Positions 1 through 14,011 of a DNA stretch of 64,000 nt are shown here, in pieces. The position numbers and the translations under genes were made by a program. Each line of letters opens with the position of its first letter. The first letter of the stretch is position 1. Source of the DNA: Acetobacter oeni (GTDB lineage: Bacteria; Pseudomonadota; Alphaproteobacteria; Acetobacterales; Acetobacteraceae); contig NZ_WOTA01000008.1 in NCBI RefSeq assembly GCF_011516825.1, positions 1 through 64,000 on the forward strand. Reading direction: 5' to 3'. The notes beneath the pieces are model-generated. The model ran no database searches. It was not told where the DNA came from and saw nothing but the letters and a program-made list of their open reading frames with translations.

Positions 1-107
1 CGAAGGATGTCGAGACAACAATCTCGTCATCCTGCGCATGGTTGATGATTGCCCATATCCGCAGAGTTCTGCGAAAAATCAATCAAACCGCTTTCTGATT
101 CAGGCTC

Positions 108-1001
108 TCAGGCTTCGAGAGAAGCTGTCGTTTCATCAAACAGATCATCAACCGCCATCCTGGAAGGGATGATTTTCTGCTCGAATGCCCAGTCGATGGC
201 CAGTTGCAATCCTTTCCGGTTAGCCTCCAGGCCAATCGGCGGAAACGGATCGGGCACGCCGCCTTCCGTCAGATTGCGGCTTTCCACAATCATTCGAAAA
301 ATCTCGCGGACAATATCCGGTCTCTGACGTGAAATATCCTGATGCACAACAAACATATGGTTTATCGGTACAACGTGTTCACGCTCATACCACGCCTGCG
401 CGGCATTTTTCGCATCCGGGATCAGGAGCTGCACGCGCGGGTCTTTAGGCAGGTCGACGCCCTGAAGCGTTGCCACCAGTTCGCCGTCCAGCATCATCTG
501 GCCAATGTCCGAGCCTTTGGGCAGGCGGACACAGTTCGGGGGATCGGTGTATTCCGCCAGATGACCATCTCCCGTTGTCATCCACGTGACTTTGTCGAGA
601 TCGACGCCGTACTCATGTTGCAGGATACCCCGCACCCAAAGGCCGGTTGTCTGAGCGTAGGTCCGGACTCCCACGCGTTTTCCCTCGATATCTTTCGGCT
701 TCAGATCGAACAGTTCTTTATTGAAGCCGGCGCAATGATGCTGGAAGCGGCCGGAAATCGGTGCGGGCAGAAGAACAAAGGGTTTTCCGTACGCTTTCGC
801 CTGCAGATAGGTTACGATTGCCAGTTCGCCGCAATCGTAGGCGCCTTCACGCAGCATTGCCTTGAAGCCATTATGCGCTTCTTTCGGTCCGCAGAAATCG
901 AGATCGACAATTTCCGAGGTAACACGGCCATCTTTCATGGCTTTTGTGACCGGATAATCCGCAAGATTGGTTTTTAATCTGGTTGTATCGGCGCCTGTCA
1001 T
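108..1001 (-). CDS. 4,5-dihydroxyphthalate decarboxylase family protein (copy 1)
   Basis: This 297-residue cytosolic-looking protein has no signal peptide. It shares blocks with the second copy at 10832-11806: a D-C/V-C/G-ELA segment near residue 55, PKDxEGKxVGVRxY near 102-116, TTGxW just after, and a C-terminal LxxDELF/DDLF-like segment. Those blocks are typical of the 4,5-dihydroxyphthalate decarboxylase (Pht5/OphC) family, which has a periplasmic-binding-protein fold but includes decarboxylases. The ATG follows GGAGA at good spacing. It is the last gene seen in a minus-strand run starting at ligJ, 26 bases after the TPP enzyme. The substrate here is unknown; decarboxylation of an aromatic or unsaturated polycarboxylic acid is inferred from family and neighbours. 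A solute-binding role is possible but less likely without a leader. Confidence 0.7.
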   Translation of the reverse strand: MTGADTTRLKTNLADYPVTKAMKDGRVTSEIVDLDFCGPKEAHNGFKAMLREGAYDCGELAIVTYLQAKAYGKPFVLLPAPISGRFQHHCAGFNKELFDLKPKDIEGKRVGVRTYAQTTGLWVRGILQHEYGVDLDKVTWMTTGDGHLAEYTDPPNCVRLPKGSDIGQMMLDGELVATLQGVDLPKDPRVQLLIPDAKNAAQAWYEREHVVPINHMFVVHQDISRQRPDIVREIFRMIVESRNLTEGGVPDPFPPIGLEANRKGLQLAIDWAFEQKIIPSRMAVDDLFDETTASLEA

Positions 1002-1027
1002 GGCGATATCTCCGTGTTCAGCAGGGT

Positions 1028-2578
1028 TCAGTAGAGTTTGACCTCGATCAGCGACGGACCCGGTGTTGCATTACAGCGGAGGATTTCGGCATGCAGAGCG
1101 CCGGCGTCTTCCACTCTTACGGCCGGGACGCCCATGCTTCCGGCCATCGCCAGCCAGTCGATCGTCGGCCGGTCAATATCGATCATCGCCATGGCCTGTG
1201 CGCCCGGAGTCCCTGCTCCCATGTTGGCGTATTCGGCTTTCAGGATCGCATACTGATTGTTGGCAAAAATAACGGTCGTGATATTCAGGCCCTCCCGGGC
1301 CTGCGTCCACAGAGACTGGATCGTATACATGGCGCTTCCGTCACCAACGATACATATCACTCTGCGATCCGGGCAGGCGAGAGCCGCACCGGTGGCAACC
1401 GGGGTGCCATATCCTATCGAGCCGCCCATGTTGTTAATAAGGTCGTGTGGCTTCGCGCCCATTGTGTGACTCATCGTCTCACGTCCCGTCGTCAGGGATT
1501 CATCGACGATGATGCCGTTTTCCGGAATAGCGGCGGACAGAGCCTGCGCGATGCTGAGCGGGGTAAGCGCGCCGGTCGGAGCTGCCGTATCTATTGGTGG
1601 CTGGATGACCGGCGCCACGTTTCTTATGCCCAGCGCATCTGCCAGCATACCGAGTCCGATTGCGCTGTCTTCATCTGCTTTAATCAGAGAATGAACGACA
1701 GTGTCGTCTTTTTTCAGAAGACTCGGTTTATCGGGGTAACTGAAGAATGCAATGGGCTCGGTGGTTTCAACCGTAATGATGTGACGGATCCCGGCCAGAA
1801 AATTCTCTGCCTGCGCCACCGCATAGGGAATGCGCTCAAGCGGCGTACGTCCCGCTCCCCGTTCGATGCGGCTGCTGAAGAACTGCGTCGCAAGCCGGCA
1901 TCCGGTCGCCGCCGCAATTCGTCCCGCGGCCACAAGCGCCGGTCCACGTGTTGCCTTACCCCCCAGAATCATCATGGCGGGTTCGCCACTTTTCAGAACC
2001 TGCACCACGGCTTCTATCCGGCCATGATCGGGGACTGGAGGCGGCTTCCTCTCAGAGGAAGGTGGAACCACTGGTTCCCCCGCATCCTGCCAGGAGGCAT
2101 CCCCGGGAAGGATCAGCGTTGCAATTTTCCCCGGGTGGCCAGAGGCCTGGGCGACAGCGGACGCGGCATCCCAGGCAATCGACTGCGACGAATCAACGCG
2201 GCGTACCCACTGACTGAGCGGACGGGCCAGTCCTTCGATATCGGATTTCAGCGGCGGATCATACTTCAGGTGAGCTGAGGAGTGCTCTCCGATAATATTC
2301 ACCATACCGGAAGATGCCCGACGTGCATTATGGATATTGGCAAGGCCATTTGCCAGACCCGGGCCGAGGTGCAGCAGTGTCGAGGCTGGTCTGTCACGCA
2401 TCCGATACCAGCCATCGGCAGCACCGGTCGCGACGCCTTCGAACAGACAGAGCACACTGCGCATCTTCGGATTGTCGAGCGCCGCGAGGAAGTGCATTTC
2501 GGAAGTGCCCGGATTTGCAAAGCAAATATCGACTCCTTCCCGCACCAGCGTTGCAACCAGGCTTTCTGCGCCGTTCAT
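1028..2578 (-). CDS. Thiamine-diphosphate-dependent enzyme, acetolactate synthase-like
   Basis: This 516-residue protein has the three-domain layout of the acetolactate synthase/benzoylformate decarboxylase superfamily. The N-terminal Pyr domain has the catalytic Glu in FEGVATGAADG near residue 50. A middle domain follows, then a C-terminal PP domain with the GDG...NN cofactor motif (GDGSAMYTIQ to ANN near 415-445). A second ATG six bases upstream (2584) would leave no room for the AAGGA ribosome site, so 2578 is preferred. It lies between the aldolase and decarboxylase-family genes and probably acts on a 2-oxo acid of the same pathway, by decarboxylation or carboligation. It is not the housekeeping IlvB, because no small subunit is adjacent and the context is catabolic. 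The exact reaction cannot be read from the sequence. Confidence 0.8.
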   Translation of the reverse strand: MNGAESLVATLVREGVDICFANPGTSEMHFLAALDNPKMRSVLCLFEGVATGAADGWYRMRDRPASTLLHLGPGLANGLANIHNARRASSGMVNIIGEHSSAHLKYDPPLKSDIEGLARPLSQWVRRVDSSQSIAWDAASAVAQASGHPGKIATLILPGDASWQDAGEPVVPPSSERKPPPVPDHGRIEAVVQVLKSGEPAMMILGGKATRGPALVAAGRIAAATGCRLATQFFSSRIERGAGRTPLERIPYAVAQAENFLAGIRHIITVETTEPIAFFSYPDKPSLLKKDDTVVHSLIKADEDSAIGLGMLADALGIRNVAPVIQPPIDTAAPTGALTPLSIAQALSAAIPENGIIVDESLTTGRETMSHTMGAKPHDLINNMGGSIGYGTPVATGAALACPDRRVICIVGDGSAMYTIQSLWTQAREGLNITTVIFANNQYAILKAEYANMGAGTPGAQAMAMIDIDRPTIDWLAMAGSMGVPAVRVEDAGALHAEILRCNATPGPSLIEVKLY

Positions 2579-2640
2579 GATCATTCCTTCATGACATTCG
2601 AAGTGGCGACGGATCTGTCATCCTTCCCGCCAGTCCGTGT

Positions 2641-3501
2641 TCAGTACCCTGCCAGTTCCCGTCCTTTGCCGACGACGCCATAACTGCGGGATGGCGCGGA
2701 CATGAGGAAGCGGTATCCTTCCTGCAACAGGCGGTCGAGATTGGATGCCGTCGTATGCGGGTTTCCAAGCGGAACAGAATATTTTCTGCAGATGTCAGCT
2801 ATCTTTCTCATGGCGTCGATCACTACCGGGTGTTCATACTGCCGGGCATAGCCGAGTTCCTGACTCAGATCACCTTCTCCGATCAGAATGAAACCAATAC
2901 CGGGAACATTGGCGAGAATATCATCTAGATTACTGATCGCCTCGGTACTCTCGCACATAAGTCCGACAAGAATTTCACCTTCCGGCGCCAGAGGCCATAC
3001 ATCAGCTTTTGCGTAATAATCCGGCTGACTGAGCCCCCAGTATCGGGCGGCTGTTGCCGGACCGTCACCGCGTATCCCTTTTGGTTCATAGAGAGGGGCA
3101 TTTTTTGGTCTTGCATAGCGACACGAACCGACTGCGTTATAGGCCTGTTCTACTGTCGCTACATGCGGCCATATAACGCCGTAGACGCCCCGGTCCAGCA
3201 CCTGTTTGGCAAAAGCCTGATTCATTTCAGCCCCGTTCGCCGGTATGCGCGCGAGGGGGGTCACGCCGGGGGCAACCGAACCGGATTCGACGATCGCTTT
3301 CCGGTTCAGCATGAACTGAAGAGCGTTACCCAGAGCGGTGACATCGTATGGATTATGCTCCATTTCAAAAACGATACTGTCATACGGGGCATCCGCCATC
3401 TCGATTGCTGCCTGCGTATCGAGTTTGGCGAAAGCGGAAAAGGCTGGCTTACCCTGTTCCCAGGCGCGGATGATACCGTTAAGGCGTTGTGTCTGTGTCA
3501 T
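2641..3501 (-). CDS. HpcH/HpaI-family class II aldolase
   Basis: This 286-residue TIM-barrel protein belongs to the HpcH/HpaI aldolase/citrate lyase family. The likely metal ligands are the Glu in LMCESTEA and the Asp in GEGDLSQ. A family His lies in FEMEHNP, and the substrate-carboxylate Arg may be in LARIPAN. Members cleave 4-hydroxy-2-oxo acids to pyruvate (or oxaloacetate) plus an aldehyde or keto acid using a divalent metal. The ATG has GAGGA upstream and starts three bases after the MFS gene's stop, so the two are co-transcribed. Beside a LigJ-type hydratase, the natural guess is cleavage of 4-carboxy-4-hydroxy-2-oxoadipate, a step normally done by the unrelated LigK/RraA-type aldolase. 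That substitution is inference. Confidence 0.82.
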   Translation of the reverse strand: MTQTQRLNGIIRAWEQGKPAFSAFAKLDTQAAIEMADAPYDSIVFEMEHNPYDVTALGNALQFMLNRKAIVESGSVAPGVTPLARIPANGAEMNQAFAKQVLDRGVYGVIWPHVATVEQAYNAVGSCRYARPKNAPLYEPKGIRGDGPATAARYWGLSQPDYYAKADVWPLAPEGEILVGLMCESTEAISNLDDILANVPGIGFILIGEGDLSQELGYARQYEHPVVIDAMRKIADICRKYSVPLGNPHTTASNLDRLLQEGYRFLMSAPSRSYGVVGKGRELAGY

Positions 3502-3504
3502 GAT

Positions 3505-4851
3505 TTATCCTCGATGAACAAGGCTGGTTTCAAGATGCAGTGGCATACGGGGTGGTTCGTCATTTTCATCCGGCAGAACCGGTGCCCAGCGCCGCCTCAG
3601 AAGAACCAGGCAGGTCACGGCACCCACGACCAGGAAAACGAAGATCACTTCCATCGGAGCGCGATAACCCCCGCTCCATTCCAGCAGCCACCCGGACAGG
3701 AGCGGGGCAACGATCCCGGCGAGACTGGTCGAGACATTCTGGATGCCGGTTACAAGCCCGACAGCGGGCGCCGGAATCAGCGTCAGGCGGCACAGAGCCA
3801 GATGGTTGGCTGTGGCGAGTCCAAGACCGGACAGTGACACGACGTTCCAGAACAGGGCTTCGTTGACAGAATGGGAGACTGCACCAAGAAGTTCCGTGCA
3901 GGCGAGAGCAAAACCGGCAATGACGAATGCCTTTCGCACGATCACGGCATCATGCCCGCGGCGGATCAGCACATCGGCCGCCCATCCGGACGCCAGCGCC
4001 ACCAGCGCGATGCCTCCAAAGCTGAAGAACGAATAAATACCCATCGTGCGAAGAGAAAGACCACGCTGTTCCACGAGATAGGCGGGCATCCATGTCATGC
4101 AGTAAAAAACAAAGTAATTATAACAGAAATTTATGATAATGGTTCCCCAGACAAGCGGACTGGAAAGCACATTGCTCAGTGGTATGGCCTTAGCGGCTGC
4201 TTTTGCCGCCGCGTCGCGTCCGCGACTGTCGTTCCGGGCAAGCAGCAACCACGGCACAAGCCACAGCAGGCCCACAAAGCCGCACAACAGGAACATGAGT
4301 CGCCAGCTGTTCAGAACAATCAGCCACGCAGCGAGAGGCGCACCGATTGCGGGGCCTATCTTGGTTCCGATCATATAGATACCGACAGCAAAACCGCTTC
4401 TGTCCTCCGTGAAGTTTGCACGGATCCAGCGATAACTGGCTGGTACAACGACAGACTCTCCGACGCCAGTGAGAATTCGCATAATTATCAGGCCGGAGAA
4501 TGTCGACATCAGCCCGGTGCAGGCAGAAGCGACACACCACACGGCGAACATGATCGCGTAAGGAAACTTGACGCCATAGCGATCGACGAGCCAGCCCATC
4601 GGGATCTGCAGGAGCGCGTAGGACCAGAAAAACGCGGAAGCTAGGGCTCCCCGGCCAATATCAGTAAGATGAAACTGAACGCGAAATGAGCCCACGGCCA
4701 GTACAGAGGCGATACTTGTCCGGTCGATGAAAGCAATTACGGCACCCACAGATAAAAGAGCGAGAACAGACCAGCGCCTGAGCTCCATGGTCTCGGTTGC
4801 GGCCGTGCGGGCTGACGCCCTGACTTCGGCCGGAGCAGACTGAACAGACAT
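3505..4851 (-). CDS. MFS transporter, anion/organic-acid symporter type
   Basis: This 448-residue, roughly twelve-helix major facilitator protein resembles the anion:cation symporter group that carries phthalate, glucarate and hydroxyphenylacetate-type acids. Visible marks are AFIDRTSIASVL in helix 1, GWLVDRYGVK in the loop between helices 2 and 3, and RILTGVGESVVVPASYRWI. The open frame extends upstream to 5079, but that stretch is antisense to the amidohydrolase gene's 3' end. The ATG at 4851 has AAAGG upstream and gives a normal family length. It sits between the amidohydrolase and the aldolase, so it very likely imports the cluster's growth substrate, a di- or tricarboxylate or aromatic acid, across the inner membrane. 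Confidence 0.85.
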   Translation of the reverse strand: MSVQSAPAEVRASARTAATETMELRRWSVLALLSVGAVIAFIDRTSIASVLAVGSFRVQFHLTDIGRGALASAFFWSYALLQIPMGWLVDRYGVKFPYAIMFAVWCVASACTGLMSTFSGLIIMRILTGVGESVVVPASYRWIRANFTEDRSGFAVGIYMIGTKIGPAIGAPLAAWLIVLNSWRLMFLLCGFVGLLWLVPWLLLARNDSRGRDAAAKAAAKAIPLSNVLSSPLVWGTIIINFCYNYFVFYCMTWMPAYLVEQRGLSLRTMGIYSFFSFGGIALVALASGWAADVLIRRGHDAVIVRKAFVIAGFALACTELLGAVSHSVNEALFWNVVSLSGLGLATANHLALCRLTLIPAPAVGLVTGIQNVSTSLAGIVAPLLSGWLLEWSGGYRAPMEVIFVFLVVGAVTCLVLLRRRWAPVLPDENDEPPRMPLHLETSLVHRG

Positions 4852-4906
4852 AGACACGACCTTTCTTCGTAAAACGCACAGTGATGAGCGTTTATGTTTG
4901 CCCGGA

Positions 4907-5761
4907 TCAGCCCCGGAGCCGTGGGTAGAGTCCCTCGGCCGTCTTTGCGAAGATCCATTCCCGTTCGATTTCCGACAGGCCGGACAGGCGCTCCTCTGCC
5001 ATGCCAAGAATTTCGGAAAGTGTTCCTGGCGACGTGGGAAAATTGGATCCCCAGGCCAGTCTCTGCGCACCGAACACATCCACGATTTTGCGAAACAGCG
5101 TGTCCGGCGCCGCCTTACCTTTAATGGAATCCCCCATGATACGAGGGGTAAGTTTCAGAAAGATCGAACTGATTGGAGCAAGGTCGAACAGACTCTGCGC
5201 TGCCGTATAGGGGGGACCATCCGTCACATCCGGGCGACCGAGATGATCGAGAATGATCGGGACATTCGGGAATCTCTCGGCAAGGATTCTTACCTGCGGC
5301 AGTCCGACGGGCCCGGTCTGGATGCACATTGACAGCCCCAGCTCTCCGCACAGATCCCAGGCAGGAAATGAACGGGGATCATCGAGTTCGCTCGGATCGA
5401 ATTCTTTCGTGCTGCCGCCGGTAAAAAGACGCAATCCGCCGAGACCGCGCTTCACCCATTTACGAATTTCTTCCACCGCATCCGGCTGAAGAACATCCAC
5501 GGAACCGACCGCAACCAGACGATCAGGATATTGCGCACAGGAGTCGACAACATAGCTGTTGTCAAAACCATATGTCGTTGATGAATGCACAACGGCGGCT
5601 TTTGCGACACCGGCTTCATCCATCGCGGTAATCAGCGTTTCCACAGTGCAGGGCCGCTCCTGCGACCAGTCAGACCGCTTGCCAAACAGGGGTGCCGGCG
5701 GGTAACGCTTCTCATCGTCCGAAATAATATGGGGATGAATGTCAATATAGTGATGAGGCAT
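4907..5761 (-). CDS. Amidohydrolase-superfamily hydrolase, LigI-like (lactonase?)
   Basis: This 284-residue protein is of the amidohydrolase-2 / COG3618 type. It begins with a metal-site-like HxH (His9, His11 in DIHPHI), has a mid-barrel His in ILDHLGRPD, and ends with the WGSNFP strand. Many relatives have Asp in place of that Asn. 2-pyrone-4,6-dicarboxylate lactonase (LigI), which makes the substrate of LigJ, belongs to this family and has similar length; with ligJ immediately upstream, lactone hydrolysis is an attractive but unproven role. The ATG is preceded by AGAGGAAA. It is 85 bases downstream of ligJ and 55 bases ahead of the MFS gene. Other possibilities are a sugar-lactone hydrolase or a decarboxylase. 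Confidence 0.72.
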   Translation of the reverse strand: MPHHYIDIHPHIISDDEKRYPPAPLFGKRSDWSQERPCTVETLITAMDEAGVAKAAVVHSSTTYGFDNSYVVDSCAQYPDRLVAVGSVDVLQPDAVEEIRKWVKRGLGGLRLFTGGSTKEFDPSELDDPRSFPAWDLCGELGLSMCIQTGPVGLPQVRILAERFPNVPIILDHLGRPDVTDGPPYTAAQSLFDLAPISSIFLKLTPRIMGDSIKGKAAPDTLFRKIVDVFGAQRLAWGSNFPTSPGTLSEILGMAEERLSGLSEIEREWIFAKTAEGLYPRLRG

Positions 5762-5846
5762 GGAATCTGTTTCCTCTCGGCCGGTTCTTCCGCCGGTTTT
5801 CTGCTGAGAGCAGGCCGGCCAGGCCTGCAGATCACTCCGCTAACGC

Positions 5847-6872
5847 TCAGAGGCCGCGCGCCTTAAGTTTCGCATCAAGACGGGGATAGACACGCCGCGC
5901 ATTGGTTTCGAAAATTTTGTGTCGCTCGGCGTCGGTCAGTTCGACGCACGCATCCAGATAACGTCTGGTATCATCGAAATACTGTCCGTTATCAGGATCT
6001 TTGCCACGCACGGCGCCGATCATCTCTGACCCGAAGAGGACATTATCGACCGGGATGACTCTGGTCAGTAACTCGACCCCCGGCTGGTGATAGACACAGG
6101 TATCGAAGAAGATATTGTTGAGCAGACCTTCGAGGGGGCGCGCGACCATCTCCAGTGACATGCCGCGATATCGTCCCCAGTGATAAGGGACCGCACCGCC
6201 GCCATGTGGAATTACAAAGCGCAGGGTTGGGAAATCTTTGAAGAGATCGGACTGAAGAACCTGCATGAAGACCGACGTATCCGCATTCAGATAGTGGGCT
6301 CCGGTTCCATGAAAATTGGGGTTGCAGGATGCGGCCACATGGATCATTGCCGGCACGTCGAGATCAACAAGTGCTTCGTACAGCGGATACCATTCCCGGT
6401 CTGTCACCGGCTTTCCGGTCCAGTAACCTCCTGACGGATCAGGATTAAGATTACAACCGACGAAGCCAAGCTCTTCAATGCAGCGTCTCAGTTCCGGAAT
6501 ACTGTGGGCCGGGGGGGCGCCCGGAGACTGCGGGAGCTGGCAAACCGGCACGAAATTGTCGGGGTAGAGTTCTGACACCCGGTAGACATTATTATTCGAT
6601 ACTTCAGCCCATTCGAGGCTGGTGCGCTCGTTCCCGAGATGATGTGACATCAGTCCGGCTATTGGCGAAAACAGTGTCAGATCAATGCCACGCTCTTTCT
6701 GAAGCCTGAGCTGTCCACTCTCCAGCGCATCACGAATCTGGTCATCGGTCAGGATCGCATCTTTTTTATCCGGCCCGTTCAGCGGGTCATCGGCCGTTTC
6801 GACCTGCCTTGCCCGCCAGTCGCGAAAGGATTTCGGTACTGTTGTAAAATGACCGTGGCAATCAATAATCAT
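5847..6872 (-). CDS. ligJ: 4-oxalomesaconate hydratase
   Basis: This 341-residue amidohydrolase-fold lyase has the same length as the LigJ enzymes of protocatechuate/gallate 4,5-cleavage. The metal-site pattern matches that family: His6 and His8 (CHGHF), His178 (MIHVA), a catalytic-site His223 (IPHGGG), and Glu283 in FGSEMIG, where most amidohydrolases have Asp. LigJ adds water to 4-oxalomesaconate to give 4-carboxy-4-hydroxy-2-oxoadipate, which an aldolase splits to pyruvate and oxaloacetate. The ATG follows GGAGA. It is the first gene of the catabolic run, separated from the upstream porin gene by a terminator. Family assignment is strong; activity on exactly this substrate is inferred. Confidence 0.85.
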   Translation of the reverse strand: MIIDCHGHFTTVPKSFRDWRARQVETADDPLNGPDKKDAILTDDQIRDALESGQLRLQKERGIDLTLFSPIAGLMSHHLGNERTSLEWAEVSNNNVYRVSELYPDNFVPVCQLPQSPGAPPAHSIPELRRCIEELGFVGCNLNPDPSGGYWTGKPVTDREWYPLYEALVDLDVPAMIHVAASCNPNFHGTGAHYLNADTSVFMQVLQSDLFKDFPTLRFVIPHGGGAVPYHWGRYRGMSLEMVARPLEGLLNNIFFDTCVYHQPGVELLTRVIPVDNVLFGSEMIGAVRGKDPDNGQYFDDTRRYLDACVELTDAERHKIFETNARRVYPRLDAKLKARGL

Positions 6873-7170
6873 GATATCTCCGGGGCGGGATTTCGACTGT
6901 TATTTAACCTGTGAAGATCGTAGAAGACGTGGTATCAAATGGAGAAATCCATTTTGCCGCAGATGCCATAAATACCTTGCCGGAGCAGCAGGGAATCGGG
7001 GACCGGGTGACATTCCCTGACCGGGACTGGTATATGCGGCATCGGATGGTGTTTGAGCGGCAGAAGACGTCCGGTGACTTATGGCCGACAAGAGTTGATC
7101 CCGGAAAAGAAAACCCGCTCCCAAGGGAGCGGGGTGCGGCAGAGGTCTTCCTTATCCGGGGGCCAGCTTC
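6873..7170. other. Spacer between ligJ and the porin gene
   Basis: This stretch of about 300 bases has no convincing gene. It contains the porin gene's terminator at its right side and should hold the promoter and operator for ligJ and the genes after it. A 106-codon plus-strand frame crosses it but has no recognisable protein and runs into the porin 3' end. Confidence 0.6.
7103..7133 (-). terminator. Rho-independent terminator after the OprB-type porin
   Basis: Reading the minus strand, CCCGCTCC and GGAGCGGG form a GC-rich stem with a four-base loop, followed by TTTTCTTTT. It lies about 40 bases past the porin stop and should insulate ligJ and its operon from porin transcription. Confidence 0.85.
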
Positions 7171-8676
7171 TTATATGTGCGCTACAAGAACACATTTAAT
7201 GATCAGCGGGTTTCCTTCCTCACGATTATAAATCGCACTTGGATGAACCGCATAGGTCAGTCCGCCATTGAGGTACAGTCCCGGCAGGATACGGTAAGTA
7301 TAAGCCAGTGTGAAATTGTAGACAGCATTCTGAACCTTATACCCTCTCGACACAAAATAATCCTGATAGGACCGGCTGACCTTGGTTCTGTTGGCAACAA
7401 ATGACAACTGATCCCGCGGGCGCGATCTGAACAGTCCGACGACGTAAATTCTTCCTTCCAGATACTGGGAATAGGAAAATGCGCTTGGGGAAGCATACAT
7501 ATAACTGAACCCGGCATACAAACCTCTGACCGGGTGCGCCGGATCTGATTGCGTGAACTGCTGATCTGCCAGAAAATAGGCGCCGGCGGCCTGTGTTTTT
7601 GTCTTTGGGTCAGCATAGTTTGTAAAGTGTGAGAAATTTCCAATTCCGGCCATACGTATCCAGGTTTTCTTAACTCCTGGTGCAGAGACTTTCCGATAGC
7701 CGACTTCGTTGATAACGAGGGCACCCGATCCGATGTCGTTAAAACGAATTCCGTAGCGGTTCGCGGTCTGTGCTTCATAGTTAAAGCCACCGGGAGAAGT
7801 GCTTCTCTGAATGCCGAACAGATTGTAGAAATGCCCGAAATTAACCCCCACATTTACTCCGGGGGCTCCGATTCCCGCTACACTGAGCCCCAGTTCCGTC
7901 AGAAGCGACGCAGAAGGACCCAGTGAACCTGACGAAACCGAACCGCCAACCAGCGGATTGGCAAACTGATAGTTGTTGGCCAGATATCCAACCTGGAGAT
8001 CGACATGATGGCGAAACAAAGGCTGATCGACATAGGCGGCACACAGGCGCGCCAGCCCGTTCGGGTAACTTCCTACTGTTGAGCCTTCCGTGCACACCTG
8101 GACCTGCGCCAGCCCGTTTTTCATTCCGATATGCCCGAGATCATAGGTCAGAGCCAGATAACTGTTGGATGTATCGACCTCCCGGGTCTGACCAATATAG
8201 CGTTGCACGCCCATGGTCCGGGATGGCTGGTGGAGCAGGTTTCCCGCGAAAGACGCCGAGAGCAAGCCGTTAAAACCGATACCCCAATCCGCGAGAGTGG
8301 ACCGGAACCCCCCTATGTTACCCAACAGGGTATCACTCACGGTGGGCACATTCACGACCCCGCGGAGGCGCAGCGCGTCAATCCGTGCTTCCTCGGCTGT
8401 TGCGGGTTTCGTTTTTACGGGAATCCCCATAACACCCGGATCCCCCTGCTGTGAAGGAACCGGCGACTCAGCGGGTTTCAGTATCAAAGGCCGCGGCGAG
8501 CTTGCCGCCGTGATTACCGGGAGGGGATACTGGCTGTCATCGCCGGCCCATGCCGCACCTGCCGGTTGCCCTAAAGAGAACCAGGTACCGGCAGCGATGA
8601 TGCCAGCGGTCTGCATCCATCGACCGGGATACACGCTAACGCCAAAACAGTTTAACATACATGATTGTTCAGACAC
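7171..8676 (-). CDS. OprB-type carbohydrate-selective outer-membrane porin
   Basis: This is a 501-residue outer-membrane beta-barrel. After a leader (hydrophobic stretch IIAAGTWF, Ala-rich cleavage region) and a Pro-rich linker, it has the OprB-like start LLGNIGGFRSTLADWGIGFNG and repeated amphipathic strands with many Tyr/Phe/Asn. A GTG at 8676 with GAGGAG nine bases upstream fits better than the ATGs at 8760 and 8658, which lack ribosome sites. OprB-type porins admit sugars and small polar solutes; acetic acid bacteria carry several. Its place beside the catabolic operon and opposite the LysR gene suggests outer-membrane uptake for the same substrate, but it may equally serve sugars. The C-terminus does not end in the usual Phe, which is slightly atypical. 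Confidence 0.8.
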   Translation of the reverse strand: MSEQSCMLNCFGVSVYPGRWMQTAGIIAAGTWFSLGQPAGAAWAGDDSQYPLPVITAASSPRPLILKPAESPVPSQQGDPGVMGIPVKTKPATAEEARIDALRLRGVVNVPTVSDTLLGNIGGFRSTLADWGIGFNGLLSASFAGNLLHQPSRTMGVQRYIGQTREVDTSNSYLALTYDLGHIGMKNGLAQVQVCTEGSTVGSYPNGLARLCAAYVDQPLFRHHVDLQVGYLANNYQFANPLVGGSVSSGSLGPSASLLTELGLSVAGIGAPGVNVGVNFGHFYNLFGIQRSTSPGGFNYEAQTANRYGIRFNDIGSGALVINEVGYRKVSAPGVKKTWIRMAGIGNFSHFTNYADPKTKTQAAGAYFLADQQFTQSDPAHPVRGLYAGFSYMYASPSAFSYSQYLEGRIYVVGLFRSRPRDQLSFVANRTKVSRSYQDYFVSRGYKVQNAVYNFTLAYTYRILPGLYLNGGLTYAVHPSAIYNREEGNPLIIKCVLVAHI

Positions 8677-8946
8677 GATATTTTTCTCCTCATGCAACGC
8701 CGGGGCCCTGGCGGGCTTCTTACTTTCTGGCGGCATGGTGCCGGCGGCTTTGCACCGCATGATCTGTGTTCATCGACATAAGCAGATTGCACTCTGACAT
8801 GGGAAAGTCTGCTCTAGGTTTCGTGACATTCCTGATTGATTTGATGGCATGACCAGGCCGATAATGCCGGGTGTTCTGTCGCGGACCTCTTTATTATCTG
8901 CCGTGGAATGTGAGCGGGCATCTTTCTGTCGCTCTTTGTCTGCTTA

Positions 8947-8982
8947 CCGGATGAGGAAGCAGGTCTTCCTGCTCCGATCCGG
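8947..8982. repeat. Interrupted palindrome, possible hairpin or operator
   Basis: The outer arms are CCGGAT (8947-8952) and ATCCGG (8977-8982); the inner arms are AGCAGG (8958-8963) and CCTGCT (8968-8973) around a TCTT loop. There is no T-run, so it is not a classical terminator. Confidence 0.6.
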
Positions 8983-9335
8983 CATCATGAGCCCGCTGCT
9001 ACAGGTCGGAATGAAATAATACGCTGACCAGGAAAGGAAGCTGCCTCCTCCGCGGAGGAACCGAATTTTCAGATTTTTTAAGTTACTTCGAAAACATAAT
9101 CGCTGAATTCCAGGGTGCATCAAATAATAATTTTATTATAAGCCCCGGATGAAAATAAAATTTCAGTATAATTTGCAGTAAACCCCGCTTATCGAAAAAA
9201 CCGGGTAATCATTCATCCGCATATTCATTATTAAATTAATCTTATGACATTTTTTGAATTCCTTACATTGTATTATTTTAATTTGTGAACATCCATATGA
9301 TTTTATAAATTTATTTAACAGAAGAAACTTTTACC

Positions 9336-9368
9336 CACATCCGGAGTTTCCTGAAAAATCCGGATGTG
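9336..9368. repeat. Perfect 10-bp inverted repeat upstream of the LysR gene
   Basis: CACATCCGGA (9336-9345) pairs exactly with TCCGGATGTG (9359-9368) across a 13-base spacer. It lies about 200 bases before the LysR start and just upstream of a TATAAT-like sequence, so an operator role is plausible. Confidence 0.6.
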
Positions 9369-9571
9369 TACGCCTTATATAATGAGTGCGCTTTCTTTTT
9401 TATCGGTCAGTCTCCGGTTCTGCCAAAGCCACCGACACGAAGCCCTGTTCCGGAAGAGACGGCAAATGGTTTCCTCGTCTTTTTCTGTAATCGCCTGAGA
9501 ATCGCACGCGTTATTGTGTCTGGTTTTCCCCCGGCCACTCTGTTTAAGTAGCAAAAAATAAGGAAAAACAC

Positions 9572-10813
9572 ATGCAGGTCGACAGTCGCTTTATGCAGGC
9601 TGACACAATCAGCCTGCGACAGCTCAGATTATTCGAGGGAGTGGGGCGCCTGAAAAGCATCCGTCGTGCTTCGGAAGAATGTAATCTGTCGCAACCGGCG
9701 GTGACGCAATCGATTGCGAAGCTGGAGTCGCATATCGGCGTTACGCTGCTTGATCGCGACACGAACGGCAGTTATCTCAACCAGTCCGGTTTTATCCTGC
9801 ATCGTCGGACAACGCGTTTTTTCGAACAGATTGAGCAGGCTATCACGGAGCTGGGCTGTCCGGGCGACCGGGCGGGTGCCAGAGCGGTTGCGCGACGCCT
9901 GACAAAATCACAGATACGCAGTCTGCTTTTGGTAGCGGAGCGCGTGCCTTTTGCAGATGCCGCCAGGATACAGGGACTTTCGGCCGCCTCGTTACAGCGG
10001 ACTTCCCGCGACCTTGAACGCAATGTCGGCAAGCAGCTTTATTCTCGTACGCCATCCGGGGTCATCGCCACTCCGGAAGGAGATACGTTCGGACGCAGGA
10101 TCAGGCTCGCCATACAGGAAATCGATCTGGGCCTGAAAGAAATTGACACGGCTCGTGGTATTGCCAGCACCAGTATCGCAATCGGGGCCATGCCGTGCGG
10201 CGGCAGCGTTATGCTTGCGTCGGTACTTGACCGGTTCGTCAGGGAGTTTCCTCAGGCCAGCGTAAAAGTGACCAGTTCCCAGTCATCGGATATGCTGGCC
10301 CGCCTGCTCTGCGGGGATGTCGATATTGCGCTCGGACTGATTCCCGAAACGCTGGAAGAAGAAATACAGGCACAACCTCTCGTCAGAACCCCTTATGAAA
10401 TCGTCGCGCGGCGAGGACATCCTCTGCTCCACAAAGGCTCTGTGACGATTGACGATCTGGCTGCGTGTGACTGGATTGCCGGCACGCCCTCATCGAACCG
10501 GCGAGCGGTATTCGATCAGCTTTTCGCGGGTCACGAGGGGCCACGGGCACCTATCACAACATGTTCGATGCCGGTCGTCCGCCATCTTCTGACAGTCGGG
10601 GACCGGCTGACACTGATGACATCTTATGAACGCACCTATGAAGGTGAGACATTGATGCCGGTTCCCGTGCCGGTTTCAGGACCGGTTCCGGCCATAGGCG
10701 TGATGATACGCCGCAACTGGCTTCCAACCAGGCTGCACACAAACTTCATTGAACTGCTGCATCGGGGCATGACGCATATTCAGCCACCCCGTCTGGTTGC
10801 TCAGACAGCCTGA
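9572..10813 (+). CDS. LysR-family regulator with two tandem winged-HTH domains
   Basis: This 413-residue transcription factor is about 100 residues longer than a normal LysR protein. The first winged helix-turn-helix spans about 14-90 (recognition region SIRRASEECNLSQPAVTQSI, 29-48). A second, more diverged one spans about 108-190 (FADAARIQGLSAASLQRTS, 127-145, then LERNVGKQLYSR). A normal LysR effector-binding domain follows from about 198 (IAIGAMP...). The ATG is preceded by AAGGA. It is divergent from the porin/catabolic genes and convergent with decarboxylase copy 2, so it is the probable local regulator, sensing the pathway substrate or an intermediate. Whether both HTH domains bind DNA cannot be seen. 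Confidence 0.88.
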   Translation: MQVDSRFMQADTISLRQLRLFEGVGRLKSIRRASEECNLSQPAVTQSIAKLESHIGVTLLDRDTNGSYLNQSGFILHRRTTRFFEQIEQAITELGCPGDRAGARAVARRLTKSQIRSLLLVAERVPFADAARIQGLSAASLQRTSRDLERNVGKQLYSRTPSGVIATPEGDTFGRRIRLAIQEIDLGLKEIDTARGIASTSIAIGAMPCGGSVMLASVLDRFVREFPQASVKVTSSQSSDMLARLLCGDVDIALGLIPETLEEEIQAQPLVRTPYEIVARRGHPLLHKGSVTIDDLAACDWIAGTPSSNRRAVFDQLFAGHEGPRAPITTCSMPVVRHLLTVGDRLTLMTSYERTYEGETLMPVPVPVSGPVPAIGVMIRRNWLPTRLHTNFIELLHRGMTHIQPPRLVAQTA

Positions 10814-10831
10814 ACAACCAGACATCCGCTT

Positions 10832-11806
10832 TCAGACCGGGTTAAGATCAAGAAACAGCTCATCAAGCGGCATCAGGCGAGGTGTCAGCTCCTGAGCAAA
10901 AGCCGTGCGGGCAAGCGCCTCCATGGTGGGGCGATTCACTTCGAATCCATAGGGAAGCGGATCAGCCCCGACGATTTTGCGCAATCCGGCATACCGCTTG
11001 TCGGACGCTGTCGTCGCGGTGCCGTCTTCGAGCCTTGCCAGCCATTCGTTCTTGGCGGTCGAGAAGGCTTTGAAGAGCGAAGCGGCGACCCATGGATGCT
11101 CTTTCAGGATTGATTCTTTCACGACTATTGTTCCATGCATCGGATAGATATGCGTCCGCGCGTACCAGTCGGCTTCCAGCTCCTCTGCGTTCGGGAACAG
11201 ATCCGGGTAGTCGTTTTCCACTTCCTTCCATCCCCCGGTCGGAGACCCCGTCCGGCCGATACCGGCATTTCCTTCGAATCCTGCAGCGAGTTTTCCGGCC
11301 GCCATCATCCCTGCCAGGGTGTCCCCTTCTGCGACATGCACGACATTTGATGGAAGTCTGAGCTGCTGCACGTGTTCCTCGTCGTCGACGACCCAGGTGA
11401 CTTTGCCACTGTCGAGACCGAACTCTTCAATGAGAACACTTCGTGTCCACACACCGGTCGTGACGGAGTAGGCGCGGACGCCCACTTTTTTGCCTTCGAG
11501 ATCCTTCGGAACCACAACGCCCGAATCCGGGTGCACCAGAAGGCCGGAGTGATGAAAACGCCTTGTCACAAAAACAGGCAATGCGACAAGCGGAATCCCG
11601 TAAGAGCGGGCGATAATATAGGTTGTCGGTGCAAGCTCGCACACATCGAATTCCAGCTGGCGGACCATCCGGCGGAAGGCTCCGATCTGCGGCTGCACTG
11701 TCACGAATTCCGCATCCACACCCTCGATCGGAATGGAACCGTTCCGAATAGCCGAGGTATGCGGAAATTCAGCGATGGCGATTTTCAGTCTGAGATCGTT
11801 CGGCAA
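10832..11806 (-). CDS. 4,5-dihydroxyphthalate decarboxylase family protein (copy 2)
   Basis: This 324-residue paralogue of the protein at 108-1001 shares FDVCELAPTTY, RRFHHS, PKDLEGKKVGVRAYSVTTG and a C-terminal PLDELF block. It has no signal peptide. The start is a TTG at 11806 with AGGAG upstream; no ATG fits as well. It stands alone at the 3' end of the LysR gene, with 18 bases between the two stops, on the opposite side of the regulator from the main operon. The copies are clearly diverged, so they probably act on different substrates or steps. Relatives include phthalate-pathway decarboxylases; the true substrate here is unknown. Confidence 0.72.
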   Translation of the reverse strand: MPNDLRLKIAIAEFPHTSAIRNGSIPIEGVDAEFVTVQPQIGAFRRMVRQLEFDVCELAPTTYIIARSYGIPLVALPVFVTRRFHHSGLLVHPDSGVVVPKDLEGKKVGVRAYSVTTGVWTRSVLIEEFGLDSGKVTWVVDDEEHVQQLRLPSNVVHVAEGDTLAGMMAAGKLAAGFEGNAGIGRTGSPTGGWKEVENDYPDLFPNAEELEADWYARTHIYPMHGTIVVKESILKEHPWVAASLFKAFSTAKNEWLARLEDGTATTASDKRYAGLRKIVGADPLPYGFEVNRPTMEALARTAFAQELTPRLMPLDELFLDLNPV

Positions 11807-12193
11807 CGGATTTTACTCCTGTGAGTCGGCGGTAATGCCGTGTTTCACTGTCAGTAAGCCACGGCCTGTCATGCCCGACCCGATAAGAAAATGCGCTGAA
11901 AGGATAGGAGTTCAGCAGAACGAAGCGGCTCTGAATTTCAGAAAAAGACGGAGCGGCCACATCCGATTGATTTTTTTCATTGCTTCGGGCGGCAGCCGGT
12001 CGTGGCGTCGCAATAAATCCCGGATGCCTGTGGAGATACACACTGTCTCGTCGGCTGACATTCCGGAAAACTGCCTCTGCCGTAAACATCTGTTCGCATG
12101 CACTGCTCTGTCGCAGTGCAAAACGGGAAAAATCCGGTCGCCGTCAGAGTATGTCCGACGCAGATACGGGCTTTTCCCTGTAGTCTGTTCTGG
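11807..12193. other. Intergenic stretch without recognisable content
   Basis: These nearly 390 bases lie between the TTG-started decarboxylase-family gene and the 3' end of the aldehyde dehydrogenase. It must hold the promoter of the former. Open frames on both strands here have no protein-like features, and I see no clear terminator. Confidence 0.5.
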
Positions 12194-13726
12194 TCAGTGT
12201 TTTGCGATCTTTCCATCAATCATACGGTTGATTCCCAGTGGATTACCGTCTCTGAGCGCGCGAGCAAGCAGCGCCTGTGGCAGGTCCTGATAACAGACAG
12301 GGCGCAGGAAACGTCGGATCGCAAGAGTGCCGACTGACGTGGTGCGACTGTCCGAGGTTGCCGGGAAAGGGCCTCCATGCACCATTGCATCCGCGACCTC
12401 GACGCCGGTGCCGAAGCCGTTCACCAGAATACGTCCGGCCTTTTCCTCAAGCACGGGCAATAACGTCGTGACGACAGGGTGGTCAGGCTCGTCCATGTGC
12501 AGTGCAATCGTGAGCTGCCCTTCAAGATGCGCGAGTACATCACTGAATGCCCCGGCATCCGGCACACGGACCAGCAGAGAAGATGGCCCGAACACTTCAT
12601 CCTGCAGATGGCCGTCTTCCAGGAACCCGGCAAGATCCGTCTCGAACAGGGCCGCCTGTGCGTCATGGGGGCCGGACGGCGCGTCGCCACGGGCGAGGGT
12701 TCGGACGCCCGCATGCGATGCGAGCCTGCTCACGCCCCTGTCATAAGCCGCATGAATGCCGGGGGTAAGCATCGTCTGTGGCATGGCTCCTTCGATACTG
12801 GCCGTAGCGCCCGCGATAAATGCGTCCAGTCCCGGGCCGTCCGTTCCGAGCACCAGTCCCGGATTGGTACAGAACTGCCCGGCGCCGATCTGCAGGGACG
12901 TTGCGAATGCCTGTCCAATGGCCGAGCCACGGCTGGCGAGCGCTGCGGGGAACAGCAGAACCGGGTTGATCGAACTCATTTCAGCATAGACTGGGATCGG
13001 CTCGGGCCGGCCTGCGGCAGCCTGCATCAGGGCGAGCCCCCCCTGACGCGAGCCGGTAAACGCCACGGCTTTAATGCGCGGATCGGTGACCAGCGCCGCA
13101 CCGAGCTCGATTCCCGTTTCGACGACCATACCGAAGACTCCGGCGGGGAGATCACAACGGGTGATCGCCGCGCGGATCGCTGTGGCCACTATTTCCGATG
13201 TCCCGGGATGAGCCGGATGGGCTTTGACGATCACCGGGCAACCGGCGGCCAGAGCTGACGCTGTGTCGCCTCCGGCAACTGAAAAAGCCAGCGGGAAATT
13301 CGAGGCTCCGAACACGGCCACCGGGCCGGTACCGATGTTGCGCAGCCGGAGATCGACACGCGGCAGAGGCTGGCGGTCTGGCCGGGCCGGGTCGATCCGG
13401 GCGTCCAGAAAGTCGCCGTCGCGCACGACGCGGGCAAACAGCCGCAGTTGTCCGCAGGTCCGGGCACGCTCACCTTCGACCCGCGTCCGGGGCAGACCGG
13501 TCTCGACCATCACCCGTTCAATCAGCGCCTCGCCCGATTCCATAATTTCGGCGGCGACAGCTTCGAGAAAGGCTGCTCGTGTCTCCAGCGACGTGTTGCG
13601 GTAGATGCGGAAAGCTGCCGTTGCCTCGGCACAGAGACGGTCGATATCGGCTTCGTCTGACAGGGCGATACCCGGATCAATCGGTTTACCGGTTTTAGGA
13701 TCGGTAGCGTGGATGAGATCGGTCAT
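12194..13726 (-). CDS. Aldehyde dehydrogenase, 2,5-dioxovalerate (ketoglutarate semialdehyde) type
   Basis: This 510-residue NAD(P)-dependent aldehyde dehydrogenase belongs to the subgroup that oxidises alpha-ketoglutarate semialdehyde to 2-oxoglutarate at the end of pentose, glucarate and hydroxyproline catabolism. Visible are the cofactor region [16 protein letters not shown], Lys in [17 protein letters not shown], the catalytic Glu in YAEMSSINP and the catalytic Cys in [10 protein letters not shown]. The ATG is preceded by GGGAG. It is monocistronic, with long spacers on both sides and no sugar-acid dehydratase next to it. The family call is firm; the substrate is inferred from subgroup features. 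Confidence 0.85.
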
Positions 13727-14011
13727 AAATTATGCTCCCGTTCGGGAAAGGGGCAATAAGCGGGAAGAAATAAGGAGAATGCCCGCAACGTGACAGGACT
13801 GCGGCGGAGCCATTGTCTCCCTGCCTTCTGTCTTGTCCGTAAAAACCGGTCAGAGCGACCCCGTAACCATCGATTTTATCGAGGCTGTCGTTAAATCAAT
13901 CCACTGTCGGATTATGCCTCGTTCGGTGAACCGGAAATGTAAGGTATCTAACGAGTTCAGTCGGCCGAATTCGCCGACCGTATGAAATGAAGAGGGCGGG
14001 CAGAGACCGGA

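Follow-up and report, generated by a model that had tools for sequence, protein, structure and literature searches.

Gallate cleavage gives 4-oxalomesaconate directly (PMC8091115), and PMC5065237 names GalA, GalB and GalD. 4-Oxalomesaconate hydratase is also listed among the enzymes encoded in Paraburkholderia genomes (PMC8268980). Lumichrome/riboflavin catabolism in Nocardioides combines thiamine pyrophosphate (TPP)-dependent decarboxylation, extradiol cleavage, pyrone hydrolysis, hydration and a retro-aldol step (PMC12746152), but it acts on another substrate and is encoded by a 25-gene cluster with a P450 and amidases. Here we describe a locus of the acetic acid bacterium Acetobacter oeni (genome of 4.1 Mb in 110 contigs) at the start of contig C8, of which bases 1-64000 were analysed (the window). 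Six genes at 108-6872, all on the minus strand, encode phtD1, a TPP enzyme, an HpcH/HpaI aldolase, a major facilitator superfamily (MFS) permease, the amidohydrolase-fold protein PLH, and LigJ (Table 1). On balance, sequence comparison leads us to favor the interpretation that they belong to a gallate-type meta-cleavage locus, which was split in the assembly by an insertion sequence (IS) and whose route would end in pyruvate and oxaloacetate.

The gallate pathway of Pseudomonas putida (gal genes) shares with this locus cleavage to 4-oxalomesaconate, a hydratase, a class II pyruvate aldolase, an MFS permease, a porin and a LysR regulator. It differs in that a dioxygenase of the VOC or divergent LigB type stands in for GalA in the locus, LigJ for the PIG-L-type GalB, and an HpcH/HpaI aldolase for the RraA-type GalC. 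The locus has PLH, phtD1, phtD2 and the TPP enzyme in addition. Protocatechuate 4,5-cleavage of the ligABCIJK type likewise has LigJ, an adjoining amidohydrolase-fold protein and an aldolase, but neither LigAB nor an RraA-type LigK is among the locus genes, and LigI's place is taken by PLH, which bears an Asn. No GFO/IDH-type LigC and no PrpF-type isomerase is among the window locus genes identified, although the genome as a whole was not searched for them. Both are present in a canonical-looking locus of the same family (L109, genome G140), which comprises GFO/IDH (LigC), LigB, LigA, an amidohydrolase at LigI's place, LigJ, PrpF and RraA. Another member of the family, G102, has a window-type operon; its main contig also encodes a second LigJ (64%) at a different site, and LigA and RraA are encoded on a separate contig. 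Since G102 holds both LigJ systems, the two may serve different substrates.

The preliminary description of this window regarded the set as lacking a ring-cleavage enzyme; in our analysis it probably does not lack one. In Acetobacter musti, a 327-aa VOC/HpaD-like protein is encoded convergently, 290 bases past phtD1. Its only match in the A. oeni genome at E 1e-5 is a 95% identical copy at C9:288-1271 on the minus strand, which sits at the start of its contig; its convergent orientation and the stretch that follows agree with A. musti. The genome contains bases 1-100 of C8 at 15 sites and the initial ~110 bases of C9 at 17, each count including the contig edge itself. Both edge sequences frame a complete element of ~0.9 kb at C5:170175-171089, which encodes a DDE_Tnp_1/DUF4096 transposase of the IS4/5 type and is oriented so that C9, reversed, is placed ahead of C8. 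The edges of C8 and C9 match opposite ends of one IS, which seems to have split the assembly, so that the locus was misread as incomplete. Direct end-to-end joining of the two contigs was ruled out, as their edges do not overlap and match the two IS ends. The IS probably lies between phtD1 and the VOC gene, and the predicted gap between their stop codons is 107 + 705 + 287 bases, or ~1.1 kb. Several of the 15 and 17 copies fall at contig starts, and an IS4/5-type element of ~0.9 kb with this many ends explains part of the fragmentation into 110 contigs.

The same VOC protein adjoins the orthologous operon in the Acetobacteraceae genomes G102 and G621 (80%), and at a Granulicella-labelled locus (L037) a VOC protein at 76% lies next to the MFS genes of the operon. 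When 385 genomes of the class were searched for the VOC protein, seven besides the A. oeni genome itself gave matches at E 1e-60, all at most 45% identical. The A. musti protein matches PF00903 in two stretches and TIGR02295 (HpaD) with 238 bits, below the cut-off of 321. The A. oeni VOC protein and those of both relative loci with a VOC (2/2) keep the His, His and Glu and the further His, His and Tyr of homoprotocatechuate dioxygenase, which we take to be metal ligands and catalytic residues. By contrast, an alignment to 1f1r places Phe, Tyr and Leu at W192, R243 and R293, presumably the substrate-binding residues of homoprotocatechuate 2,3-dioxygenase. Because these positions are changed, homoprotocatechuate is an unlikely substrate, and we rejected an assignment as a homoprotocatechuate enzyme. 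By sequence, the VOC protein is a possible candidate for a gallate dioxygenase.

The LigA domain PF07746 gave no match in the A. oeni genome, whereas the same search gave two in G140 and one in G102 (14 standing controls were silent). The RraA/LigK family PF03737 gave no match at E 0.001 (7 of 14 controls matched), nor was RraA found in the A. musti genome (G150), while each of eight other genomes searched had at least one. The absence of LigAB and of an RraA-type LigK, first noted for the window, thus extends to the LigA domain and RraA genome-wide, and what probably lies next door is not LigAB, LigC or LigK but a different ring-cleavage enzyme. The sole PF02900 match in the genome is a 278-aa protein on contig C12, which we take for a YgiD-type enzyme. 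It was ruled out as the missing enzyme: the 3.7 kb fetched around it contain no operon gene, and tblastn with six LigB-type proteins of the operon did not recover it at E 1e-5.

Relatives of the operon were obtained by scanning named genomes with PLH; 116 places were confirmed and the best 80 kept. Counts among these 80 use script-set identity thresholds and the best match anywhere in a stretch of ~20 kb. In 70 well-flanked relatives at least 7 kb before and at least 9 kb after the PLH anchor are available, and the other 10 are shortened by contig ends. Genes in relatives were called by codon-position G+C, and some antisense open reading frames (ORFs) remain (clusters 13 and 14 look antisense). 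PLH carriers include A. musti (93%), Novosphingobium, Sphingobium, Caulobacter, Paraburkholderia, Caballeronia, Massilia, Duganella and others, and a metagenome-assembled genome (MAG) labelled Granulicella. The usual order, with variants, is phtD2-ligJ-PLH-MFS-X-aldolase-TPP-phtD1, X being a dioxygenase. LigJ, PLH, the aldolase, phtD1 and phtD2 all occur in the same stretch in 65 of the 70 well-flanked relatives, a co-occurrence beyond chance; in none of the 80 does LigJ, the aldolase, phtD1 or phtD2 lie over 6.9 kb away from PLH. Within Acetobacteraceae the operon is rare, in line with the initial remark that such a route is unusual in an acetic acid bacterium, which holds within our sample: a PLH orthologue at E 1e-90 was present in 3 of 299 genomes of the family and in none of the seven other genomes of the same genus in that sample, A. 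musti being a further carrier from the named-genome collection.

A LigB-type protein was found in 62 of the 80 relatives, inside the operon in 59 and elsewhere in the stretch in three (L066, L080 and L090, the last as a 45-residue piece at the edge). Two relatives have a VOC protein, none has both types and 16 have neither, so that 64 have one or the other. The LigB-type X is a LigB-family protein of ~328 aa (PF02900, 48 bits) with remote similarity to gallate dioxygenase and LigAB. In an alignment of 61 full-length sequences with the canonical LigB of L109, whose numbering we use, His 12, which we take to be the first metal His, His 125, and His 193, presumably the acid-base His, are kept. 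The alignment is ambiguous for the Glu ligand, with an invariant Glu close by.

A second form of the operon has TctA and no internal dioxygenase (L074, L077, L079-L082, L084, L090 and L093-L095). Most such loci have an extra PLH copy, and the form with a dioxygenase is present as well in some of the genomes concerned. The operon is also found on plasmids or megaplasmids, namely a plasmid of Acidovorax sp. DW039 (L125) and a replicon of Paraburkholderia largidicola (L126). On the Acidovorax plasmid, the gene that takes the place of LigB-type X carries the label protocatechuate 3,4-dioxygenase, which is an intradiol name.

By sequence, LigJ of the window is clearly a 4-oxalomesaconate hydratase. 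It matches characterised LigJ over its full length, and H6, H8, H178, Y194, H223 and E283 are kept in all 74-75 loci read. We take these to correspond to the zinc and catalytic residues H6, H8, H178, Y194, H223 and E284 of the SYK-6 enzyme; an E284Q mutant is named among the structure matches. In a midpoint-rooted tree of 95 rows, the operon LigJ proteins form a supported clade of 75 rows (76 with L037), with bootstrap values not fully settled, and 19 other Acetobacteraceae LigJ proteins fall outside it. The window protein groups with those of A. musti, an Acidocella MAG and G102. Left out of the tree were matches of under 290 residues, those containing stops and those below 38% identity, as well as ten short loci (L002, L003, L004, L007, L008, L010, L011, L014, L015 and L017) that duplicate longer stretches or the window.

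In the aldolase, H49, R85, E184 and D211, which we take to be the HpcH/HpaI metal and catalytic residues, are kept in 76 of 76 loci. Because no RraA-type LigK was found in the A. oeni or A. musti genome, the HpcH/HpaI aldolase probably stands in for it, as judged from sequence. According to PMC5065237, HMG/CHA aldolase and HpaI are class II pyruvate aldolases that differ in structure, and a title cited there terms them evolutionarily convergent, so that the replacement is chemically plausible. The preliminary description had already recognised LigJ, the lower meta-cleavage logic and an HpcH-type substitute for LigK, and these parts of it are borne out. Its LigI-like amidohydrolase withstood scrutiny in fold and histidines, but not in its catalytic residue.

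PLH is only ~20% identical to LigI (E 6e-8 to 9e-6). An AlphaFold2 model from 12 sequences (pLDDT 83) was closest in Foldseek to cog3618/LigI structures (4d8l, TMq 0.74), and the amidohydrolase active-site histidines H9, H11 and H173 are present in 80 of 80 loci. At the position of the LigI catalytic Asp D248, PLH has N240 (WGSNFP versus WGTDWP) in all 80 loci as well as in the second PLH copies (12 of 12); the crystal titles of 4di8, 4di9 and 4dia name D248A and D248N mutants of LigI. Given the Asn in 80 of 80 loci, hydrolysis of 2-pyrone-4,6-dicarboxylate (PDC) by PLH, and with it the conventional LigI reaction, is doubtful. This bears on the possibility that the locus serves, as the preliminary description suggested, to scavenge PDC or a related tricarboxylic acid, which would be imported without ring cleavage, the neighbouring dioxygenases being accessory. 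The fold of PLH, the 11 of 70 well-flanked relatives with neither dioxygenase, and a tripartite tricarboxylate transporter gene (TctA) nearby in 11 of the 80 relatives are in line with scavenging. We consider it unlikely, however, given the missing LigI Asp, the LigB-type gene inside most operons, and the VOC gene beside four acetic-acid-bacterial operons (A. oeni, A. musti, G102 and G621), even with the Acidocella MAG L091 having neither type. Moreover, a second, dioxygenase-bearing form is found in two Paraburkholderia tropica genomes, P. guartelaensis and Burkholderia sp. Ac-20365, which have the dioxygenase-less form.

Two other Acetobacteraceae, G108 and G091, bear on the role of the phtD proteins. 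Their LysR, MFS, VOC (26-27% alike), RraA, phtD-like and LigJ genes lie together, the MFS gene of G108 being a by-eye assignment and the VOC and RraA frames overlapping in that genome. As in the window locus, a VOC dioxygenase, a phtD-like protein, LigJ, MFS and LysR are combined; unlike it, these operons have an RraA aldolase and one phtD, and their stretches gave no match to PLH or the TPP enzyme. Neither genome gave a LigA domain (G091 is 92% complete, in 1110 contigs). This arrangement suggests that phtD and VOC proteins are regular partners of LigJ, that HpcH/HpaI and RraA aldolases fill the same slot, and that a LigJ-based route genuinely includes the phtD proteins. We take the G108/G091 operon to match the roles of the gal operon, with VOC in place of GalA. 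Between LysR and LigJ, neither a LigC- nor a LigI-type gene was seen, consistent with cleavage of the gallate type rather than of protocatechuate; by this analogy, ring cleavage should yield 4-oxalomesaconate directly, as in gallate cleavage.

A route by way of 4,5-dihydroxyphthalate or a phthalate-like compound appears improbable to us. Here phtD would form protocatechuate, a dioxygenase the semialdehyde and an aldehyde dehydrogenase (ALDH) the enol form of 4-oxalomesaconate, followed by LigJ and the aldolase. It would account for 4,5-dihydroxyphthalate decarboxylase being the sole meaningful relative of phtD1 in the PDB, as it is the sole one of the G108 phtD-like protein, and for the ALDH gene in the window and in 22 of the 80 relatives. 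The similarity of phtD1 to the real decarboxylase is remote (E 8e-21), however, and Pfam and NCBIfam searches with phtD1 gave no match. In addition, 58 of the 80 stretches, some of them cut by contig ends, have no ALDH at 50% identity or more, no phthalate dioxygenase is among the 15 proteins annotated, and no dehydrogenase gene was seen between MFS and LigJ in G108.

In the gallate-type route that we favor, an aromatic acid would enter through the OprB porin and the MFS permease, and the VOC protein (C9:288-1271) would cleave a trihydroxylated ring of the gallate type, giving 4-oxalomesaconate or a closely related compound. PLH may act on the ring-fission product by isomerisation, lactone opening or otherwise; LigJ would then hydrate the fission product and the HpcH/HpaI aldolase split the aldol into pyruvate and oxaloacetate. 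Decarboxylation of the growth substrate, or of an intermediate early in the route, is the probable task of phtD1, phtD2 and the TPP enzyme. The gene set, its order and conservation, the kept active-site positions of LigJ, the aldolase and the VOC protein, and the absence of a LigK-family protein are evident from the sequences; the reactions, the substrate and the join of the contigs are what we infer.

Several observations weigh against this interpretation. With 15-17 IS ends in the genome, the join of C8 and C9 is not unique. Neither dioxygenase was found in 11 of the 70 well-flanked relatives, or 13 if L080 and L090 with a LigB-type match ~10 kb off are counted; among the 11 is the Acidocella MAG L091, whose LigJ is close to that of the window, with neither in its 18 kb. 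In the LigB-type protein, Gln replaces His 59, which we take to be the second metal His, in 61 of 61 aligned sequences (for example, L059:12354-13340), so that its role in ring cleavage is uncertain. The TPP enzyme is absent in 15 of the 70, and a route through gallate alone leaves PLH without an evident role. A larger or heterocyclic substrate, on which a TPP enzyme, extradiol dioxygenase, pyrone hydrolase, hydratase and aldolase would act in order, is suggested by the same enzyme types in the lumichrome pathway (PMC12746152) and by porins, outer-membrane proteins, beta-propeller lactonases and, by eye, TonB-receptor-like proteins beside many loci, but is quite improbable, as LigJ is close to the 4-oxalomesaconate enzyme and no Rieske dioxygenase, xanthine-oxidase-type protein or P450 is among the 15 proteins annotated.

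Table 1. Features of the A. oeni locus on contig C8, with the number of the 80 relatives having a match
Feature	Position	Strand	Relatives (of 80)	Evidence and remarks
IS4/5-type insertion element end	1..107 (~first 100 bases)			At contig edge; 15 places in own genome including this one
phtD1, 4,5-dihydroxyphthalate-decarboxylase-like	108..1001	-	72	Sole meaningful PDB relative 9jp7, E 8e-21
TPP-dependent enzyme, PRK07586 family, benzoylformate-decarboxylase-like	1028..2584	-	60	NF005760, 734.9 bits (cut-off 363)
HpcH/HpaI-family class II aldolase, candidate CHA aldolase	2641..3501	-	76	PF03328, 74.7 bits (cut-off 25)
MFS permease	3505..4851	-	70	PF07690, 179.8 bits; start chosen since longer ORF to 5079 overlaps neighbour
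PLH, amidohydrolase-fold protein, remote LigI relative	4907..5761	-	80 (query)	Asn for catalytic Asp; AlphaFold2 model, Foldseek
ligJ, 4-oxalomesaconate hydratase by sequence	5847..6872	-	76	phmmer E 7e-147 (2gwg), 5e-142 (6dxq)
OprB-type outer-membrane porin, upstream of ligJ	7171..8760	-	1	PF04966, 67.2 bits
LysR-type regulator	9572..10813	+	25	Two HTH_1 stretches, PcaQ-like second half
phtD2, second 4,5-dihydroxyphthalate-decarboxylase-like protein	10832..11806	-	75	31% identical to phtD1
Aldehyde dehydrogenase	~12197..13738	-	22	Limits from tblastn match; 89% to A. musti neighbour (family Aldedh)

The six co-directional genes were assigned to the correct families in the preliminary description, but the set extends beyond 6872: OprB, LysR, phtD2 and ALDH, up to ~13738, belong to it as they do in A. 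musti, where OprB has the same position at 80%. The top-scoring PDB relatives of the TPP enzyme are benzoylformate decarboxylases. The top NCBIfam match of the MFS permease is TIGR00893 (D-galactonate transporter), under its cut-off. The LysR regulator has 413 aa, compared with a median of 420 aa for its related genes as called in 25 relatives. The G+C content of 108-13738 is ~0.56 compared with 0.60 in the remaining window, which is compatible with horizontal gain. An Rfam scan of the window gave no matches. Beta-propeller proteins (lactonase PF10282, PD40 and YNCE type) recur beside the operon in relatives (L057:17716-18918, L104:4379-5575, L053:16764-18674 and L022:17480-18694) and might act on a periplasmic lactone or ester substrate.

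In conclusion, the locus is real, ordinary in its class of chemistry and new in its combination. We found no description of this operon, of a VOC-type gallate dioxygenase or of an HpcH/HpaI-type CHA aldolase in the literature searched, which did not cover most subscription journals. A broader proposal, which we put forward tentatively, is that the operon encodes a widespread, unrecognised aromatic pathway reaching 4-oxalomesaconate chemistry with enzymes independently recruited at three steps. These would be ring cleavage by a VOC or Gln-bearing LigB-fold protein, a new reaction of an Asp-less LigI-fold protein, and HpcH/HpaI in place of LigK, with the paired phtD proteins and the TPP enzyme decarboxylating a natural substrate not yet named. 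The case illustrates how a pathway can appear incomplete when a contig ends in an IS. If the proposal is true, dozens of bacterial species carry an operon without a known substrate, its proteins being concealed by annotations such as 'amidohydrolase', 'acetolactate synthase' and 'ABC transporter substrate-binding protein'. The operon would then provide a test case for repeated enzyme replacement in one pathway, possibly a VOC-type gallate dioxygenase, and new enzymes near PDC, a lignin-derived polymer building block.

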